A model generated the notes under the pieces. It was given only the letters and a program-made list of their open reading frames with translations. It was not told the origin of the DNA and did no database searches. Both the position numbers and the translations under genes were made by a program. Of a stretch of DNA of 38,247 bases, positions 5,335-35,982 are shown one piece after another. The stretch's first letter is position 1. Each line of letters begins with the position of its first letter. The DNA is from Candidatus Parabeggiatoa sp. nov. 3 (GTDB lineage Bacteria; Pseudomonadota; Gammaproteobacteria; Beggiatoales; Beggiatoaceae). The DNA lies in assembly GCA_003645185.1 (NCBI GenBank), contig QNEL01000009.1, forward strand, positions 1 to 38,247. Direction: 5' to 3'.

Positions 5335-7883
5335 ATGACAACCATCACCATCCGCGAACAACCCAATAACACTCAAAACGAATACCAAGCAACCGTCAGT
5401 TTCAACAAAGACGAATTTCAGTGTACCATCAATAATCCCTGCACAAATGAGCAACTATCTGATTTAGAATGGTATTTTAAAGAATACCCCCATGATCCTG
5501 ATGATGAAGACAAGGAAAGGGCAAAATCAGTTGCAGCCAGCATTAAAAAATGTGGTACACAATTATTTGAGCAAGTGTTTTGTAATAGAGCCTTAACGCG
5601 GCGTTATGATCAAGAAAAACACACCGGCATTCAGTGTATTGAGATTATTAGCTTGCCTAACTCGCCCGCATTTCATAGTTTGCCCTGGGAAACTTTACAT
5701 GATCCAGATGATTTGCAACCACTCGCTTTAAACATCCCTATCATTCGTCAATACACATCAGAAACTAAGGTATTAAACGTCCAGCCATCACCAATTATTA
5801 ATTTACTCATTATCACAGCCCGCCCCCATCGGGAAAAAGATATTAATTATCGTGCCATCCCCCCTTAGTCGAAAGTTTACGCCAAGCAAAGTTGCGCGTG
5901 AATATCACTATTTTGCGCCCCAGCACCTATCGCGCCCTCAAAGATCACCTGAGTACCCGTCTTGGGTATTATCACATTATCCATCTAGACGTACACGGCG
6001 CCTTATTGGAGAAGAATAAAAGCGTTATCTATCTGGAAAGTACCGAAGCCGATCATCGCGCCGATCCCATCGAAGCCACTCAATTAGCCCAACTACTGGT
6101 TCAACACCAAATACCAATAACCCTCCTCAACGCCTGTGAATCGGGCAAACAAATCGGCCTCACCGAAACCAGTTTGAGTGGCCAATTTATGGAAGCGGGG
6201 GTACCGTTGGTATTAGCCATGCGCTACACCGTCACCCTTGGGGCCGCCACCTTTTTTATGAAAACCCTATATCAACATTTATTCGGTGAAGGTGAAGGGC
6301 ATAATCAATCAAACCATGACATAGCCACCGCCATCCGTTATGCGCGAAAAACCCTCTATAATAATAAAGAAAGGCGCAGCACCTATAATGAACTGATTGA
6401 ATTAGAAGAATGGATCATACCCGTCGTTTATCAAAATACCCCGACTTTTTCTTTACCCCTGCGTGACTTTCGCCCAGATGAACAAACACAACGCGACGCT
6501 TATGATGCCCGCACCTTTCATCAAAACCCGGCACCGCCGGATCAATTTATCGGGCGAGACTTAGAAATATTAGAAATCGAAACCCAAATCGCCCAGCGCA
6601 ATAGTTTATTAATACGCGGAGGCACAGGAATAGGCAAAACGACTTTACTCCACCACTTAGCTTGGTGGTGGCAAAATACCTACACAGTCGATAAGGTATT
6701 TTATTTCAGTTATGCTGAAAAGCGGATTACACAGCAACAAGTATTACAAACCATAGCCCAAGCCTTATTCGGCACCGAAAAACCCCAGGGTACAGTAGTC
6801 AATCGCCTCATTAAGGAACGGCACCTGCTCATTTTTGACGCGCTAGAATGTATCAATAAATCAGAACAAACGGCCCTCCATGATTTTTTGATGCGTTTAG
6901 ATAATGGTAAGTTATTGATATTACTAGGTTCACAGCAAAAAGTGAAATGGTTAGCAAAAGGCACTTTTAAGGATAATGTCTATAAACTCACCGGCATTGA
7001 CAATACCTCAGCCAATATTTTAATGAAAAGTACGCTCAAGCGTCATAACATTTCAGATAGGGATTATGACATTCCTAATTTATATTCACAATTAGAAAAA
7101 AATCCATTGTTATTAGAAATAGCGATACAGGCAATATTGAAAAAACAAACCGCCCTGTTATCCACCTTACAAACAGCCATCACGGAGACAGATAAACAAG
7201 GCGAGGCAAAACAGCACAGTATTTTACAGGCCGCCATCAATTTTATTGACAACACGCTCACGCCTAATGAACAAAACTTGCTATTATGTTTAGCCCCGTT
7301 AAAGTTCGCTATTAACACCAATACCTTATCGGAATATAGCCAGCGACTACAGCAACACACCGTTTTAGCGAATTTACCCTTTAATGATTGGGAAAAAGTC
7401 TTAGAAAAAATGGCGGATTGGGGATTATTGCGCCTTTATCCTGAAGTGCTTTTACAATCTGCTTTTGCAGATTTTTTACGCAGTCGCTTAAGTGAAAAGG
7501 CGTCGTTACAGGGTGCAATTGAAATAGCATTTGCTCAGTATAGTGATAACGTATCAAAAATTGATTCTGTCACACAACCTAAAATGTCAAATCAAAACGA
7601 TATTCAAACACTAACACCAAATGATAAGGAGACATCATTAGTGGTATCCGGTAAAATCAAAATCCAATTCTGCCGTCGATTAGGAAACGATTGGCAAGAT
7701 TTAGCCACCAGTCTTGATATCCCAGCACACCGCCGTAATCAATTTCCGCAAGGGCGCGAATGCCATGCCATTTGGGAATGGTTGGAAGAACGAAAGCAAT
7801 TGCACACTTTAAAAGAAGCGTTAGGCGATTTAGATCGCCAAGATTTAGTTGAGTTATTGAATACAAACAACAAGGTAAGTTAG
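5335..7883 (+). CDS. CHAT-family (caspase-like) protease - STAND/AAA NTPase - death/EAD-like domain protein; one apparent frameshift at 5859-5865
   Basis: ORFs 5335-5868 and 5892-7883 are contiguous across a C6 run; CHAT His (YHIIHLDVHG) and Cys (LLNACESG); P-loop GGTGIGKTT; Walker B-like HLLIFDALE; C-terminal FCRRLGNDWQDLATSLDIPAHRRNQFPQGRECHAIWEWLEER. Confidence 0.85.
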
Positions 7884-7897
7884 GAGTTTATGCCACT

Positions 7898-10705
7898 ATG
7901 TCGTATTCAGGTCAAAGCAAAATAGCGTTTTGTCGTCGATTAGGAAACGATTGGCAAGATTTAGCGACTTGTCTTGATATCCCAGCACCTCGCCGTAATC
8001 AATTTCCACAAGGGCGTGAATGTCATGCCATTTTGGAATGGTTAGAGGAAGATGATAAGAGACTTCAAAAATTATCCGAAGCTTTAAGAGTTCTTGAGCG
8101 TGATGATTTATTATCAGTTCTTGAGTTATCACAATCTATCAGCCATGAAGAAGTTATGCAGGAGAAAACCACTTCCGCATCAACACCTGATAATCAAATC
8201 GACAAGCAACGTTTAATTACTCTATTGCTTGACTGTCCAAGTCTTAGGGATACAGGTACTCGTAGTTCATTGTTGAAGATGTTACCCCATCACATCGTTG
8301 ACCATATTAAAGTGGGTAATACCATTAAAGAATATGTGATTAATATTGTCGATGGGTGTATGGATTTTGCGGATGGTTTACAACATTTGTTTGCTGCCAT
8401 CCGATTTTTTGATGAAAAAACTATTCAGTTTCAGGCACTTATTGGTGAGTTCAATTTAGATAAAGATAAGAATGAAACACCGCCGCCAGTTATAGGAGAT
8501 ATAGAAAAAACCATCACGGCACTGATGGCGCAATTGCATTTATCACCACAAATGCGAGCCTGTGATGAGTTTACGCAACATAATCAGGATAGTTTGCAGT
8601 TGATTCGAGAGGCAATGGTGCAATTGAAACAGTTGTCACCCCAAACCCCTGAATATGGGCGCGTGTCTCTTAGCGTGGGGAGTGCGTTGGCTTCAACTGG
8701 GGAGTTGTTACAAGCGGAACGTTTATTTACCCAAATTATTGAAAACACAGATAAAAAACCGGAAAGGGCCATTGCTTATTTTAACTTGTTTCAAGTGCAG
8801 TTGCGGCGCGAAGTTTACCCAGAAGCTTTGGAAAATTTGCAAGCAGCGATTGCGATTAATCCGCACTATGCTTTGCATGATTTACAGAAGTATCCGCTTG
8901 AACGGTTATTGGGTGCTGGCGGAATGGGTTGTGTGTTTTTGTGTCAAAACCATAATCATTCAAATCGTCTCTTAGCTCAACATGAACGAGTTGTGGTCAA
9001 ATGTTTTTGGGAACATCCCAAGGCTAGGCTTGACGAAGTGTTCAAAGAACCATTTGCCATGCGTGACATTGCCGGTGATTATATTCCTGAACCGTTAGAT
9101 ATTGGTTATGCTGATACGATTAAACGGGAACGGGCTTATTTTGTCACAGCGTATATTGATGATGCGATAGATGGTGAAGCGTGGTTGGAAAAGTATGGCC
9201 CGCTGGATTTAGAGACTGGTTTACAGGTGGGGTTACAAATCGCTAATGGTTTGCAGATTGCTCATGCTGCGGGTATTTGTCATTTGGATTTGAAGCCAGC
9301 GAATATTTTGTTGAACCAAACGAATAATGAAATAGCGGTCAAAATTATTGACTTTGGTTTGTCTCAGGTGGTGCCATCATTGCAGCAAAAGGCGATGACG
9401 ATGCAACAAAGTCGTGCTGGATTAAGTCAATTTGGGCAAGCGATATTTGGCACTTTGGATTACGCGTGTCCTGAGCAACAGGGTTTTAGTCAATATGGTA
9501 AGCCGGGGGTGTTATGTGATGTATTTGCTTTTGGGATGACAATGTCGCGTTTTTTTACGGGTAAGAATCCGCGTTATGTTCGGGAACGGGATTTGCCAAA
9601 GGTAGAGGCGTTACGAGATTTGTTGGGTGATTGTGTTGAACAAGAACCTAAACAGCGTCCTGATTCAGCTAAACAATTGCTCAATGATTTAAAAGTTATT
9701 AAAGGCCCTGATAAAACTGAACAAAGACAAAAAGATGAATTTCCCCAACATCAAATTGAAGAAGGAAGAGAACAACAAGAGAAAAAACAAACATATTTAA
9801 ACGACCAGACATTTTTCCAAAAATATATCCAAATAACCAAAAAGTGGCTACAAATATCAAGATATGATAAACGGACCATACTGCAAATAAAAAAACAAGA
9901 AGCGAAATTTCAAGAAATTGGAATCTCTGTTAAACAGATCGTGATTATTATTTCTCTGGCATTAATAGGCCTAATAAGCGTACTAATAACAAGTATTTCA
10001 AGTACTATTTTTGATTTACTAAACTTGAGTTTGTTGCCAGATCAATATAAATATGTATATCAGCCAAATATATATGAGCCAAACCCGGTAAGAGTAATTG
10101 ATCTTATTATTAGCATTTTGCTATCCATTTTATTAATAGGGCAATATCTCTGGAGACACCGTCAAACTATATCCCATATTGCCATGATAATTGGGCTTAT
10201 TTGTATTGCTTTGGAGTTGTATTTCATATTAGCATGTTTTTTAGGTGGATTAGGCCTCATTTTTGGCAAAGCTTTTAATGCTGGTAAGGAGACACTTGGT
10301 GCCATTGTGAGTATTTTTCTTCCTCTTTCATTGTTAGGACAATATCTACTGAGGTATCGTCAAACTATACCTTATAGTGCTATGGTAACGGGGTTAATTG
10401 CTATAAGTTTTGGAATATATCTTATACCACTGGTTACCCTTACAAGCTTAGGATATGGAGAAATAAACGGGGCAATTTATGGTATTTTGCTTGCGATTTT
10501 ATTTTTGGGTCAATATTTATGGATGAATCGTCAAACAATACCTTATATTGCCATGATAATTGGACTGATTTTTATTGGTTTTGGAGTTTTTTTTATACCA
10601 ATGACAATATTTTTTTTATGTGTTACGTTTAGGAAAGTTCATAAGCACAGTTACGGGTATCTTGTTGTTTATATTATTGGTGGGGCAATATCTTTGGAGA
10701 CATAA
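7898..10705 (+). CDS. Death/EAD-like domains - Ser/Thr protein kinase - multi-TM membrane protein (C-terminus probably frameshifted; reading likely continues to 10796)
   Basis: N-terminal FCRRLGNDWQDLATCLDIPAPRRNQFPQGRECHAILEWLEE; second EAD-like segment ITLLLDCPSLRDTGTRSSLLKMLP; kinase LGAGGMGCVF, VVVKCF, HLDLKPANILL, DFGLSQ; C-terminal repeated TM modules. Confidence 0.88.
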   Translation: MSYSGQSKIAFCRRLGNDWQDLATCLDIPAPRRNQFPQGRECHAILEWLEEDDKRLQKLSEALRVLERDDLLSVLELSQSISHEEVMQEKTTSASTPDNQIDKQRLITLLLDCPSLRDTGTRSSLLKMLPHHIVDHIKVGNTIKEYVINIVDGCMDFADGLQHLFAAIRFFDEKTIQFQALIGEFNLDKDKNETPPPVIGDIEKTITALMAQLHLSPQMRACDEFTQHNQDSLQLIREAMVQLKQLSPQTPEYGRVSLSVGSALASTGELLQAERLFTQIIENTDKKPERAIAYFNLFQVQLRREVYPEALENLQAAIAINPHYALHDLQKYPLERLLGAGGMGCVFLCQNHNHSNRLLAQHERVVVKCFWEHPKARLDEVFKEPFAMRDIAGDYIPEPLDIGYADTIKRERAYFVTAYIDDAIDGEAWLEKYGPLDLETGLQVGLQIANGLQIAHAAGICHLDLKPANILLNQTNNEIAVKIIDFGLSQVVPSLQQKAMTMQQSRAGLSQFGQAIFGTLDYACPEQQGFSQYGKPGVLCDVFAFGMTMSRFFTGKNPRYVRERDLPKVEALRDLLGDCVEQEPKQRPDSAKQLLNDLKVIKGPDKTEQRQKDEFPQHQIEEGREQQEKKQTYLNDQTFFQKYIQITKKWLQISRYDKRTILQIKKQEAKFQEIGISVKQIVIIISLALIGLISVLITSISSTIFDLLNLSLLPDQYKYVYQPNIYEPNPVRVIDLIISILLSILLIGQYLWRHRQTISHIAMIIGLICIALELYFILACFLGGLGLIFGKAFNAGKETLGAIVSIFLPLSLLGQYLLRYRQTIPYSAMVTGLIAISFGIYLIPLVTLTSLGYGEINGAIYGILLAILFLGQYLWMNRQTIPYIAMIIGLIFIGFGVFFIPMTIFFLCVTFRKVHKHSYGYLVVYIIGGAISLET

Positions 10706-10841
10706 CAGGACTATGCTTAATTTTGCTACAACAATCGGATTTACTGGTATCGCTTTTGGACTTTTTGTTATGCTAATAATTGGTGAAAATTGGTGATGTC
10801 AAACTTTCCTTTAACACTTACCATTCAAATAAATGGGGGCA

Positions 10842-10926: not shown

Positions 10927-10975
10927 TCTTCCTTGACGCTCAGCGTCGAACAGTCCATTACTACTGCTTTTTGGA

Positions 10976-11195
10976 TGAGTGGCGGTTGTTTGTTTGAATA
11001 GAGTACCACGAATGACTTAGATAAAAGAGTACAACGAATTACGGGGATAAACGAATTAATCATTAATTTAACCGACATGATTTTATAGGTTTATTAGTTT
11101 ATCTGCCCGTAATTCGCTGTACTATATACTCATGAGTGGCGGTTATTTGTTTGAATAGAGTTCCACGAATGACTTAGATAAAGGAGTACAACGAA
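10976..11195. repeat. Two copies of a ~65-bp element (gagtggcggttRtttgtttgaatagagtNccacgaatgacttagataaaRgagtacaacgaatt)
   Basis: copies at ~10976-11040 and ~11132-11195; partial third copy near 11411. Confidence 0.8.
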
Positions 11196-11505
11196 TTTGA
11201 AAAGCAAACAACGAATAAAGAGTACAACGAATTTGAAAAGCAAACAACGAATAAAGTGAAAAATGTGTTAAGTCATTCGTTGTGATTTTTTAAATTCGTT
11301 GTACTATTTTTTATTCTGTTAATTCTAAAATTCTGCAAATTCTGATTCAGACAATTAACGATGATTAATCCTGACAATCCGTAAAGAAGTGTAATCTTGT
11401 TCAAAATGCGGTGGCGGTTGTTTGTTTGAATAGAGTACCACAAATTAATTGTACTATACAATCCAGCGACATTAACTATTTCACAATTTACCCAGAAAAA
11501 AATCT

Positions 11506-11763
11506 ATGGCATTAACGATAAATCACCCAGAAGCAAATCTCTTGATTCAAGAACTGACAAGTTATACAGGTGAAACCCTAACACAAGCGGTTTTAAACGC
11601 TTTACGGGAAAGAATCAAGACAGAAAAAGAAAAACGAAAAGCGGCAATATCTTTAACAAATGAACTGTTACAAATTGGTAAAGAGTGTGCCGCATTACCC
11701 GTCTTGGATAACCGTACCCCTGAAGAAATTTTAGGTTATAATAACAATGGGGTAACAAATTAA
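11506..11763 (+). CDS. vapB: VapB/PSK-type antitoxin
   Basis: 85-aa MALTINHPEANLLIQELTSYTGETLTQAVLNALRERI upstream of and overlapping the PIN toxin. Confidence 0.8.
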   Translation: MALTINHPEANLLIQELTSYTGETLTQAVLNALRERIKTEKEKRKAAISLTNELLQIGKECAALPVLDNRTPEEILGYNNNGVTN

Positions 11764-12149
11764 TGGTTATTGATTCTTCAGCGGTTATTGCTATCTTATG
11801 TGATGAACCTGACGCAAAACATTTTACCACCGCTATTGAAGGTGATTCAATTCGCTTGATGTCTGCCGCTTCATTACTAGAAACTTCAATTGTGATTGAA
11901 TCCAGATATGGTGAAGAGGGTGGACGTAAACTGGATTTATTACTGTTAAAAGCGCAAGTCAAAATAGAACCCGTTACTTTGGAACAAGCGGAAACTGCTC
12001 GTATTGCATTTCGTATTTATGGGAAAGGGCGACATCCAGCCGGTTTAAACTTTGGTGATTGTTTTTCTTATGCCTTGGCAAAGGTTTTAGAAGAACCGTT
12101 ATTATTCAAAGGCAATGATTTCAGCAAAACAGACATTAAACAAGCCTAA
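11763..12149 (+). CDS. vapC: PIN-domain toxin, VapC family
   Basis: MVIDSSAVIAILCDEPDAKHF, LLETSIVIESR, LNFGDCFSYALAK, LLFKGNDFSKTDI. Confidence 0.92.
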   Translation: MVIDSSAVIAILCDEPDAKHFTTAIEGDSIRLMSAASLLETSIVIESRYGEEGGRKLDLLLLKAQVKIEPVTLEQAETARIAFRIYGKGRHPAGLNFGDCFSYALAKVLEEPLLFKGNDFSKTDIKQA

Positions 12150-12404: not shown

Positions 12405-12711
12405 TTGAGTCTCCAGTATTTACTAAATATATGGCCAGATTATGGGTCAGAGGATGAACGTGGTGAATTTGCGGCTTGGTTAGCTGAAAACCCTTATGCT
12501 GGTGATGTTGTCCCAGGTTCAGGAGGAGTGCGAAAAGTTAGGTGGGGACGAAAAGCAAGGAAAAAGAGGTGGAATCAGGATCGTCTACTTTATTCAGTTA
12601 GGTAATGGACTTATTTGGTTGCTAACTCTTTACGCAAAATCAAAGAAAGAAAATATTCCAGCACATATTCTCAAAACATTGAAAGAGGAACTTGTAGATG
12701 GTTATGAATGA
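12405..12711 (+). pseudogene. RelE/HigB-like toxin with frameshift near 12545
   Basis: frame 1: FAAWLAENPYAGDVVPGSGGVRKVRWG; other frame: GDEKQGKRGGIRIVYFIQLGNGLIWLLTLYAKSKKENIP. Confidence 0.75.
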
Positions 12712-13006
12712 AATAGACTTAATTGAACGTGATTTGAAACGGGATATATGGCAAGAAACTTTAGATGCAGTGCGCGATATAAAAGCTGGTAAGGTTGGTC
12801 ATGTAAGGACAGTTGAATTACCGCCAGTTGTTGAAGCTCGTCAAAAAGTCGGGTTATCACAATCAAGATTTGCCGAGTTACTCGGTGTTTCAACTCATAC
12901 ACTTCAAGATCGGAAACAAAGTTGTTGCAAACCAAGTCGTACTGCTATATCGCTTATTCAAATCGCCAAACAACGTCCAGATGTAATCCGCGAAGTATTT
13001 GGATAA
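12698..13006 (+). CDS. HTH-type antitoxin (HigA/NadS-like), partner of the preceding toxin
   Basis: VEARQKVGLSQSRFAELLGVSTHTLQDRKQSCCKPSRTAISLIQIA. Confidence 0.82.
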   Translation: MVMNEIDLIERDLKRDIWQETLDAVRDIKAGKVGHVRTVELPPVVEARQKVGLSQSRFAELLGVSTHTLQDRKQSCCKPSRTAISLIQIAKQRPDVIREVFG

Positions 13007-13349: not shown

Positions 13350-13988
13350 ATGGCATTTAGCGAATATAAAGATTATATGGCTAGTGAGTTGGAGGTTTTT
13401 TTTAACATAAAAATTTGCGAACATGAGGATTTATTTACTAATTTTAAGTCTAGTGGTAAAAATTATGCTCCTCTTCAAGAAGATGTAAAAGATATGTTAT
13501 CACGTATTAAAATCTCTAAATCGGATAATGAAGCAACCAGAAGCAGCCTTTTAGTATCCCATGTTTTGTGGAAAGCCTGCAAAGTCTACAAATTAGGTAT
13601 TTTCTTTGAACCGGTTTTGGAGATTAACCAAGAAAAAACGCCTAACTTACCGCACCAATTAAATGGTAAATATGATGGTGCTTTAACTCTTGATATAAGA
13701 GATTTTGTACACCCTATAGTCTCAGTTGTTGAAGTTAAGAAAAGTAGCCTTTCTGATGGTTTGGGGCAGTGTCTAGCTGAAATGTACGCTACCCTAAAAA
13801 AATTTGGGCAGGATAGAGTATATGGTATTATAACAGATGGTGTAGAATGGGAATTTCTTTTATTAGAAGAAGCTATTCTATCTATAGATGGTGACGTTTA
13901 TTCTATACGCACCGTGTCTGATATTGTTGATAGAGTTGGCTATATAGCAGAAAAATTCAGAGAGGGATTTGAAGTCGTTCATACTTAA
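13350..13988 (+). CDS. Putative PD-(D/E)XK nuclease-like protein
   Basis: 212 aa; GKYDGALTL...PIVSVVEVKKSSLSDGLGQCLAEMY resembles D-x(n)-ExK plus downstream Q. Confidence 0.5.
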   Translation: MAFSEYKDYMASELEVFFNIKICEHEDLFTNFKSSGKNYAPLQEDVKDMLSRIKISKSDNEATRSSLLVSHVLWKACKVYKLGIFFEPVLEINQEKTPNLPHQLNGKYDGALTLDIRDFVHPIVSVVEVKKSSLSDGLGQCLAEMYATLKKFGQDRVYGIITDGVEWEFLLLEEAILSIDGDVYSIRTVSDIVDRVGYIAEKFREGFEVVHT

Positions 13989-34645: not shown

Positions 34646-35982
34646 GGAACGTGCATAAAATAAATTAGACAACTATGATATTAATGTGCTAGTCTAAAAA
34701 AAGCAGGCTACATTATAACAAAACCAAAAAACAATGATAGAACCTTATACGAAAGAAATTGAAGAACAAATGCAAGAACTGTACAATCGTCTTTCAGAAA
34801 GAAATAGACGTTTATATGCTGGAATTGAAGCTTTAAAATTACCTTATGGTGGTGTTAGTTATATTGCCCGCCTTTTTGATTGTTCACGTGATACCATTCT
34901 ACGTGGAATAAGAGAACTTAAAGAAGAGGAAACACTAGCTCCAAACTGTGAGAGAAAAGCTGGTGGTGGTCGAAAGCCTGTGGTTGAAAAATCTCTTGAT
35001 ATTGATGAGGTTTTCCTAATTTTGTTAAAAGAACATACAGCAGGTGACCCAATGGATGAAAAAGTAAAATGGACAAATTTAACTTGTTTCGATCTTGCAA
35101 ACTTATTATCAAAAGAAGGCTATAAAGTCAGTCGTAATATTGTCAGAAAATTACTGAAAAAACAGGGATATGTCAAACGTAAAGCATTGAAAAAGAAGTC
35201 TGCTAAAGAAAGTGTGAATCGTAATGCCCAGTTTGAGCGTATTGCGGAATTAAGAGCTTCATATAATGAAGAAGGCAATCCTGTAATAAATATAGATACC
35301 AAGAAAAAAGAAAAAATAGGTAATTTATTCCGTGAGGGTAAAATTTATACAACTGAAACGATTGAAGTCTTTGACCATGATTTTCCTTCTTTAGCAGAAG
35401 GGGTTGCCGTTCCTCATGTTCTTTATGATACTGAACGTAATGAAGCATCTGTCAGCATTGGTACAAGCCATGATACAAGTGAGTTTGCTTGTGATTCAAT
35501 TCGCTATTGGTGGTATAACTCTGGAAAATTGCACTATCCTGATGCCAGTTCTATTTTATTGTTGATGGATGGTGGTGGTAGTAATTCACCCAGACACTAT
35601 ATTTTCAAACAAGATTTACAAGCCCTAGTAAATGAAATTGGTGTTGAAATACGAATCGCACATTATCCACCATACACATCTAAATGGAATCCTATTGAAC
35701 ATAAAGTATTTCCTCATATCACTCGATCTCTACAGGGTGTTATTTTGACCTCCCATCAACTTATGAAAGAGTTGATAGAGAAAACAACCACAAAAACAGG
35801 ATTAAAGGTAGTTGCTACTATTTTCAATAGGGTTTATGAAACTGGCAGAACAGTTGCTACTAGCTTTAAAGAATCAATGCGAATTGTATTTGACGATTAT
35901 CTGGGGCAATGGAATTATACCGCTGTTCCTTTCGATGCAACTTTATTAAGTTGAGTTGTCTAAGTTATTTTATGCACGTTCC
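34646..35982 (+). mobile_element. ISAzo13-like insertion sequence, ~29-bp TIRs, 3-bp TTA target duplication
   Basis: left GGAACGTGCATAAAATAAATTAGACAACT; right end inverted AGTTGTCTAAGTTATTTTATGCACGTTCC; TTA at 34643-34645 and 35983-35985. Confidence 0.9.
34734..35954 (+). CDS. ISAzo13-family (Rhodopirellula-type DDE) transposase
   Basis: DGGGSNSPRHYIFKQDLQAL, IAHYPPYTSKWNPIEHKVFPHITRSLQGVIL. Confidence 0.88.
   Translation: MIEPYTKEIEEQMQELYNRLSERNRRLYAGIEALKLPYGGVSYIARLFDCSRDTILRGIRELKEEETLAPNCERKAGGGRKPVVEKSLDIDEVFLILLKEHTAGDPMDEKVKWTNLTCFDLANLLSKEGYKVSRNIVRKLLKKQGYVKRKALKKKSAKESVNRNAQFERIAELRASYNEEGNPVINIDTKKKEKIGNLFREGKIYTTETIEVFDHDFPSLAEGVAVPHVLYDTERNEASVSIGTSHDTSEFACDSIRYWWYNSGKLHYPDASSILLLMDGGGSNSPRHYIFKQDLQALVNEIGVEIRIAHYPPYTSKWNPIEHKVFPHITRSLQGVILTSHQLMKELIEKTTTKTGLKVVATIFNRVYETGRTVATSFKESMRIVFDDYLGQWNYTAVPFDATLLS

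Follow-up and report, generated by a model that had tools for sequence, protein, structure and literature searches.

Do the two adjacent genes between positions 5,335 and 10,796 of this contig from the giant sulphur bacterium Candidatus Parabeggiatoa encode a protease and a kinase that work together through a shared death-like adaptor, and are both genes still intact? Death domains serve in animals to unite proteases with kinases during cell-death and immune signalling. For the bacterial relatives of the Death domain, a place in networks of this kind has up to now been deduced chiefly from gene context. The window, meaning the whole stretch of DNA analysed, is 38,247 nucleotides long, and all features of the two genes given below lie on its forward strand.

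The first gene has Pfam matches to CHAT (E = 2e-16), to a NACHT-type STAND NTPase (E = 3e-10) and to the death-like domain bDLD3 (Pfam: PF20690; E = 2e-29). Both catalytic motifs of a CHAT protease, HLDVHG (position 5,982) with the His and NACESG (6,129) with the Cys, are present at 5,982–6,146, in a gene whose reading frame is not continuous (break at 5,857–5,868). The NTPase carries a Walker A motif GGTGIGKTT (6,618) and a Walker B-like motif LLIFDALE (6,825), together spanning 6,618–6,848, and the bDLD3 domain occupies the C-terminus (7,650–7,865). Pfam and the motif positions thus agree with the domain content given in the initial annotation, which was a CHAT domain with His and Cys motifs, a P-loop NTPase and a C-terminal domain of about 70 residues. 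That annotation also had the NTPase respond to a trigger. The C-terminal, superstructure-forming sensor repeats of its STAND/NACHT relatives are absent from gene 1 and bDLD3 stands in their place, which weakens this proposal.

The ORF of the second gene (7,898–10,705; 935 amino acids) starts close behind the first, as had been noted, with a gap of 14 nt before its start codon, and its domain order is bDLD3-EAD2-TPR-kinase-TM. The N-terminal bDLD3 (7,910–8,125; Pfam E = 2.5e-24) is modelled by AlphaFold2 with a pLDDT of ~94. The next segment, previously described only as EAD-like, is effector-associated domain 2 (EAD2; Pfam: PF19956; 8,219–8,440; E = 1.4e-15), scoring 57.8 bits against a cut-off of 23.8, with an AlphaFold2 fold model of low confidence. 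EAD2 is present once in this genome, and a search there for an EAD2 partner found none. The TPR region has a weak Pfam match, and DNA comparison places the TPR-like linker and the kinase in one block (8,521–9,781) common to a large paralogous kinase family of the Beggiatoa group. The Hanks-type Ser/Thr kinase itself (8,897–9,688; Pfam: PF00069; E = 3e-24) is of the non-RD type (HLD) and contains VVVKCF, HLDLKPANILL (9,281) and DFG (9,350). With the Lys, catalytic Asp, Asn and DFG all present, the full kinase that had been predicted is indeed complete.

Hydropathy and direct repeats (10,100–10,234, 10,298–10,432 and 10,469–10,603) define transmembrane hairpins in units of ~170–200 nt at 9,908–10,639; these and the weak TPR match are in line with the helical TPR-like region and repeated membrane modules expected from the letters alone. 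The frame had been taken to reach 10,796. The ORF stops at 10,705, and the repeat pattern runs on in a different frame after a T8 tract (10,610–10,617), where a slip removes the last membrane hairpin. This fourth hairpin is recognised in the other frame at 10,605–10,796 by ORF frames, repeats and hydropathy. In HSG14, a genome assigned to the same genus (G329; coordinates matching Candidatus Parabeggiatoa sp. HSG14), a related kinase has unbroken copies of this hairpin repeat at its end.

The domain that both genes share is a death-fold adaptor, as profile search, AlphaFold2 and Foldseek concur, and the lack of a helical death-like fold is ruled out. The bDLD3 copies score 102 bits (gene 1) and 86 bits (gene 2) against a Pfam cut-off of 27.1, and 144 nt of them are 86% identical; with matches so far above the cut-off, chance is excluded as the source of their likeness. 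The family signature is a Trp in helices 2 and 4 and an RxD opening helix 6, as described by Kaur et al. 2021 (PMC8195603), and in the alignment both copies show the hallmarks DWQDL, EWLEE and DRQD or ERDD. A profile built from ten bDLD3 sequences and compared with solved structures retrieved 16 sequences with E no higher than 1, of which almost every one was a metazoan Death domain, including ankyrin-1, NRADD, p75NTR and FADD (best E = 0.005). AlphaFold2 predicts six helices for the gene 1 domain with a core pLDDT of ~90, and the first 18 Foldseek matches of this model are all Death domains, the best being Pelle with a TM-score of 0.75, at weak E-values that are usual for helical folds of ~80 residues. 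The outcome for the gene 2 domain was alike in both programs. When scanned as a fragment, each copy also scores above the cut-off of the metazoan Death model in Pfam.

Death-like domains of this family are rare and come in pairs. We found bDLD3 in 5 of 299 genomes of the phylum, each with two copies ~260 bp apart, and in 3 of 43 genomes of the order; in this genome (assembly 90% complete) the two copies of the locus are the only ones. A survey of 292 cyanobacterial genomes yielded one, the already-known Symploca genome. Among the loci that we fetched, the upstream bDLD3 lies on the C-terminal side of an enzyme (nucleosidase-like PNPase, caspase or CHAT-NACHT) and the downstream one on the N-terminal side of a core (STAND-TPR, VMAP, iSTAND or FGS), where the labels PNPase, STAND-TPR and FGS in the Magnetococcales and Symploca loci come from reading the translations and not from a Pfam scan. 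One HSG14 locus (L019) is an exception to the pairing, with a single copy. At another HSG14 locus (L021:6969-12385) three consecutive proteins carry the domain, namely a caspase-bDLD3, a bDLD3-AAA-TPR and a 374-codon bDLD3 protein. The expected conserved co-occurrence therefore divides: the tandem bDLD3 pair recurs, and the pair of CHAT protein and kinase was found in this genome only. The tandem-pair principle of bDLD3 is already known (Kaur et al. 2021). No relatives of the gene 2 N-terminus were detected in the viral contigs searched, and the plasmid search returned a single weak EAD2 match, in a caspase-family gene of Streptomyces.

Comparison with the relatives indicates that both genes are mosaics, joined at the borders of bDLD3. 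Collinearity with Marithrix extends from 5,309 to ~8,124, over gene 1, the spacer and the bDLD3 of gene 2 at 75.5% DNA identity, beyond which homology stops. Nucleotides 1–259 of gene 2 are 87% identical to a bDLD3-VMAP gene of HSG14 (L018). Over nucleotides 326–791 the match is to an EAD2-TPR gene fragment from a different Beggiatoa-group genome (L084; 75% identity), and over nucleotides 624–1,884 to the TPR-kinase family (71% identity). The joint of the domain swap can be placed at 8,126–8,222, since the HSG14 homology ends at 8,156 and the EAD2-TPR homology begins at 8,223. Those members of the TPR-kinase family examined in this genome have another N-terminus of ~200–350 residues and no bDLD3. 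Gene 1 likewise matches a CHAT-NACHT paralog of this genome up to 7,605, just short of bDLD3, and its more distant CHAT-NACHT relatives end in TPR repeats. What follows the second bDLD3 differs between the loci. In Marithrix (L017) it heads a gene of 362 codons, with an AAA ATPase and a caspase protein of 1,215 codons next in line; in HSG14 (L018) it heads the VMAP gene, and an AAA ATPase and a protein with an FGS domain come after it. The L084 fragment (L084:2231-4260; G332:C370) has lost its kinase and is divergent to a trypsin-EAD2 gene. Because of this arrangement, the window kinase probably derived from an EAD2-wired protease locus of the kind seen there.

The two bDLD3 copies have also exchanged sequence within the locus. 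Helices 1–4 of the gene 1 copy (approximate tract 7,659–7,772) resemble gene 2's, with 88% amino acid identity and 74% identity at third codon positions, whereas the rest of the gene 1 domain is 93% identical to gene 1 of the relatives and 52% to gene 2. MaxChi with permutation supports the tract, at p ~0.0004 when Marithrix is the comparison and at 0.0002, the lowest value that the test can give, when it is HSG14. To judge from these comparisons, partial gene conversion keeps the pair alike. Gene 1 was probably the recipient, since the bDLD3 of gene 2 remains close to its HSG14 relative. The tract suggests matched evolution of the pair.

Taken as a whole, the best reading is of a kinase plugged into a death-domain socket that is normally used by the core of a ternary conflict system, a function that we infer. 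We consider it about an even chance that the locus is a two-protein signalling unit of conflict or cell-death type, wired by its bDLD3 pair and built through module shuffling. In the intact ancestral form, the membrane kinase would sit in the hub position held in the relatives by the ternary-system core. On a cue from the membrane or envelope, its bDLD3 would recruit the CHAT-NACHT protein through death-domain contact; the NACHT domain would then oligomerise, and the CHAT protease would be activated and cleave its targets. Phosphorylation by the kinase may tune the assembly, and the outcome of the unit would probably be growth arrest or cell death. All of these steps past the anatomy we infer from the grammar of bDLD3 loci and from Kaur et al. 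2020 and 2021. More tentatively, and at somewhat less than even chances, the second bDLD3 may be a fixed docking socket: the relatives would retain CHAT-NACHT-bDLD3 and the socket and exchange the module behind it, conversion would match socket and plug, and a Pelle/IRAK-like death-domain kinase would here be wired to a caspase-like NLR protease.

The initial annotation presented an intact module, and its coordinates read through the frame breaks of both genes. The region 5,335–7,883 is not a single open frame. The first ORF (5,335–5,868; 177 amino acids), which holds the N-terminal half of the CHAT protein, ends at a TAG at 5,866–5,868, and the remaining ~670 codons (5,862–7,883) lie in another frame, which is open from 5,847 with its earliest ATG/GTG/TTG start at 5,892. 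Candidatus Marithrix has an unbroken ortholog of 794 codons, to which the two pieces align at 71–73% identity; the N-terminal ORF is 73% identical to its residues 2–169 over 175 aligned columns. Two CHAT-NACHT genes of this genome are 58–59% identical to the Marithrix protein. In one (G000:C48; L108:2865-6263) the gene is intact and a C-terminal region of ~365 amino acids with no assigned domain replaces bDLD3; the other (G000:C330; L109:3967-5625) is shortened, with a TGA inside the match. DNA comparison with Marithrix and these two paralogs locates the lesion ATCCCCCCTTAG at 5,857–5,868, where the frame is shifted by the loss of 4 nt from an ISRP/ISRH-LVE motif: ATCCCCCCTTAGTC stands at the break in place of the 18-nt ISRP/ISRH-LV stretch of the other three genes. 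With this frameshifting deletion in gene 1 and the last transmembrane hairpin missing from gene 2, an intact working module is not supported for this genome. On these frames the protease arm is probably inactivated in this assembly, with the kinase left over.

Gene 1 may be a pseudogene and gene 2 a living general kinase, fused by recombination to a leftover bDLD3 leader, so that no protease-kinase system ever worked here; we regard this as rather unlikely. It would account for a deletion inside a conserved motif and for the state of the other copies. The HSG14 copy, upstream of the VMAP gene, is decayed and has lost its P-loop region, so that the CHAT-NACHT-bDLD3 gene is broken in two of three known copies, and one of the two near paralogs in this genome is interrupted too. 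The kinase family, with ~10 paralogs per genome, may have a role in ordinary signalling, and most of its members lack death-like adaptors. Homogenisation of the bDLD3 copies within the locus suggests, on the other hand, joint use after they came together. The dN/dS of gene 1 against Marithrix is low on either side of the break (0.23 before, 0.21 after), which indicates that the gene was under constraint until recently, and the bDLD3 and kinase frames of gene 2 are fully open.

Less probable still is that the breaks arose in sequencing or assembly and that the organism has both genes intact. Both breaks do lie at homopolymers (C6 and T8), and the low dN/dS continues across the break in gene 1. 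However, a gene that is 4 nt shorter than its ortholog and paralogs does not fit a simple 1-nt homopolymer slip, and the long housekeeping ORFs of the same contig are unbroken, so we judged a general indel error to be unlikely, a point that also fits genuine decay. It is highly improbable that gene 1 yields a low level of full-length CHAT protein through programmed -1 frameshifting at the C-CCC-CCT that immediately precedes the TAG. This heptamer has the form X-XXY-YYZ, and slipping by -1 there leads into the right frame. Against this, neither the ortholog nor the paralogs, each read in a single frame, have such a site; the Marithrix ortholog already contains the TAG, out of frame; and all-C slippery sites are poor in bacteria.

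The sharp DNA joints in this locus and its two nearest relatives show that entire signalling modules are swapped at the adaptor. The locus lends itself to a direct test of homotypic docking: the two domains are small, and Marithrix supplies a defined relative that is intact. With its frames damaged, such a unit may be expensive to maintain or soon lost.

Between the kinase gene and a toxin-antitoxin-like pair, a TGGCGGTTGTTTGTTTGAATAGAGTACCAC-like sequence occurs three times (10,960–11,460), possibly as part of a small mobile element. The toxin-antitoxin-like genes directly downstream (11,506–12,149 and 12,698–13,006) are an Rv0623-like antitoxin with a PIN-domain toxin, and an MqsA/Xre-like antitoxin. 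A 212-aa ORF at 13,350–13,988 matches the PADLOC PD_DExK nuclease model (E = 1.5e-28), and a complete-looking DDE transposase (DDE_Tnp_ISAZ013, Pfam: PF07592) lies at 34,734–35,954.

Among known systems, PADLOC reported only general kinase matches (mad6 and PD-T4-6) and a weak SAVED-CHAT match; we rejected membership in each, as only the kinase or CHAT parts match. The locus shares its PF20690 family with the bDLD3 conflict systems of Kaur, Iyer, Burroughs and Aravind (2021, eLife 70394, PMC8195603). That article describes several copies per locus, one on effectors and one on the core, and records fusions of bDLD3 to a caspase and to an S/T kinase as well as a bDLD3-iSTAND in a Thiotrichaceae bacterium; a whole-word search of its main text found no CHAT domain named. 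The pair of CHAT-NACHT-bDLD3 and bDLD3-EAD2-TPR-kinase-TM was not found in the open-access literature, and the supplementary tables of that article may list one. Unlike those systems, the locus is without a MoxR-vWA core, and no MoxR AAA or vWA genes were detected in the window ORFs scanned (most ORFs >120 aa). The nearest HSG14 relatives (L018, L019), with the same bDLD3, are of the type of the MoxR-vWA ternary systems with VMAP or iSTAND (Kaur et al. 2020, PMC7159879), and the Marithrix gene order (L017) resembles such loci; in the window the kinase replaces the MoxR-like and core genes. The kinases of actinobacterial ternary systems are mostly disrupted (Kaur et al. 2020, PMC7159879), whereas that of gene 2 keeps its catalytic residues.

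The CARD-NLR anti-phage systems (Wein et al. 2025, as cited in PMC13236601; LypABC) are analogous in that a death-fold adaptor joins a protease to an NLR-like NTPase. According to that citing article they use a CARD-like domain, a trypsin-like protease and gasdermin or nuclease-like effectors, whereas we see bDLD3 and a CHAT protease; the window ORFs scanned gave no Pfam match to a CARD-like domain, trypsin-like protease or pore-forming effector. CHAT-NACHT-TPR proteins of the same bacterial family (L111, L112, L113) have the same CHAT and NACHT domains, with 45–46% identity across a NACHT-spanning stretch, and end in TPR repeats where gene 1 ends in bDLD3. Metazoan Pelle, IRAK and RIPK1 are single proteins in which a Death domain is joined to a Ser/Thr kinase. 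Gene 2 is built likewise, and the Pelle Death domain is the best fold match; it differs in being bacterial, in its additional EAD2 and TPR, in its C-terminal membrane hairpins and in its CHAT-NACHT partner. The bDLD3 adaptor logic has already been described, and the combination of CHAT and kinase was not seen in the relatives checked.
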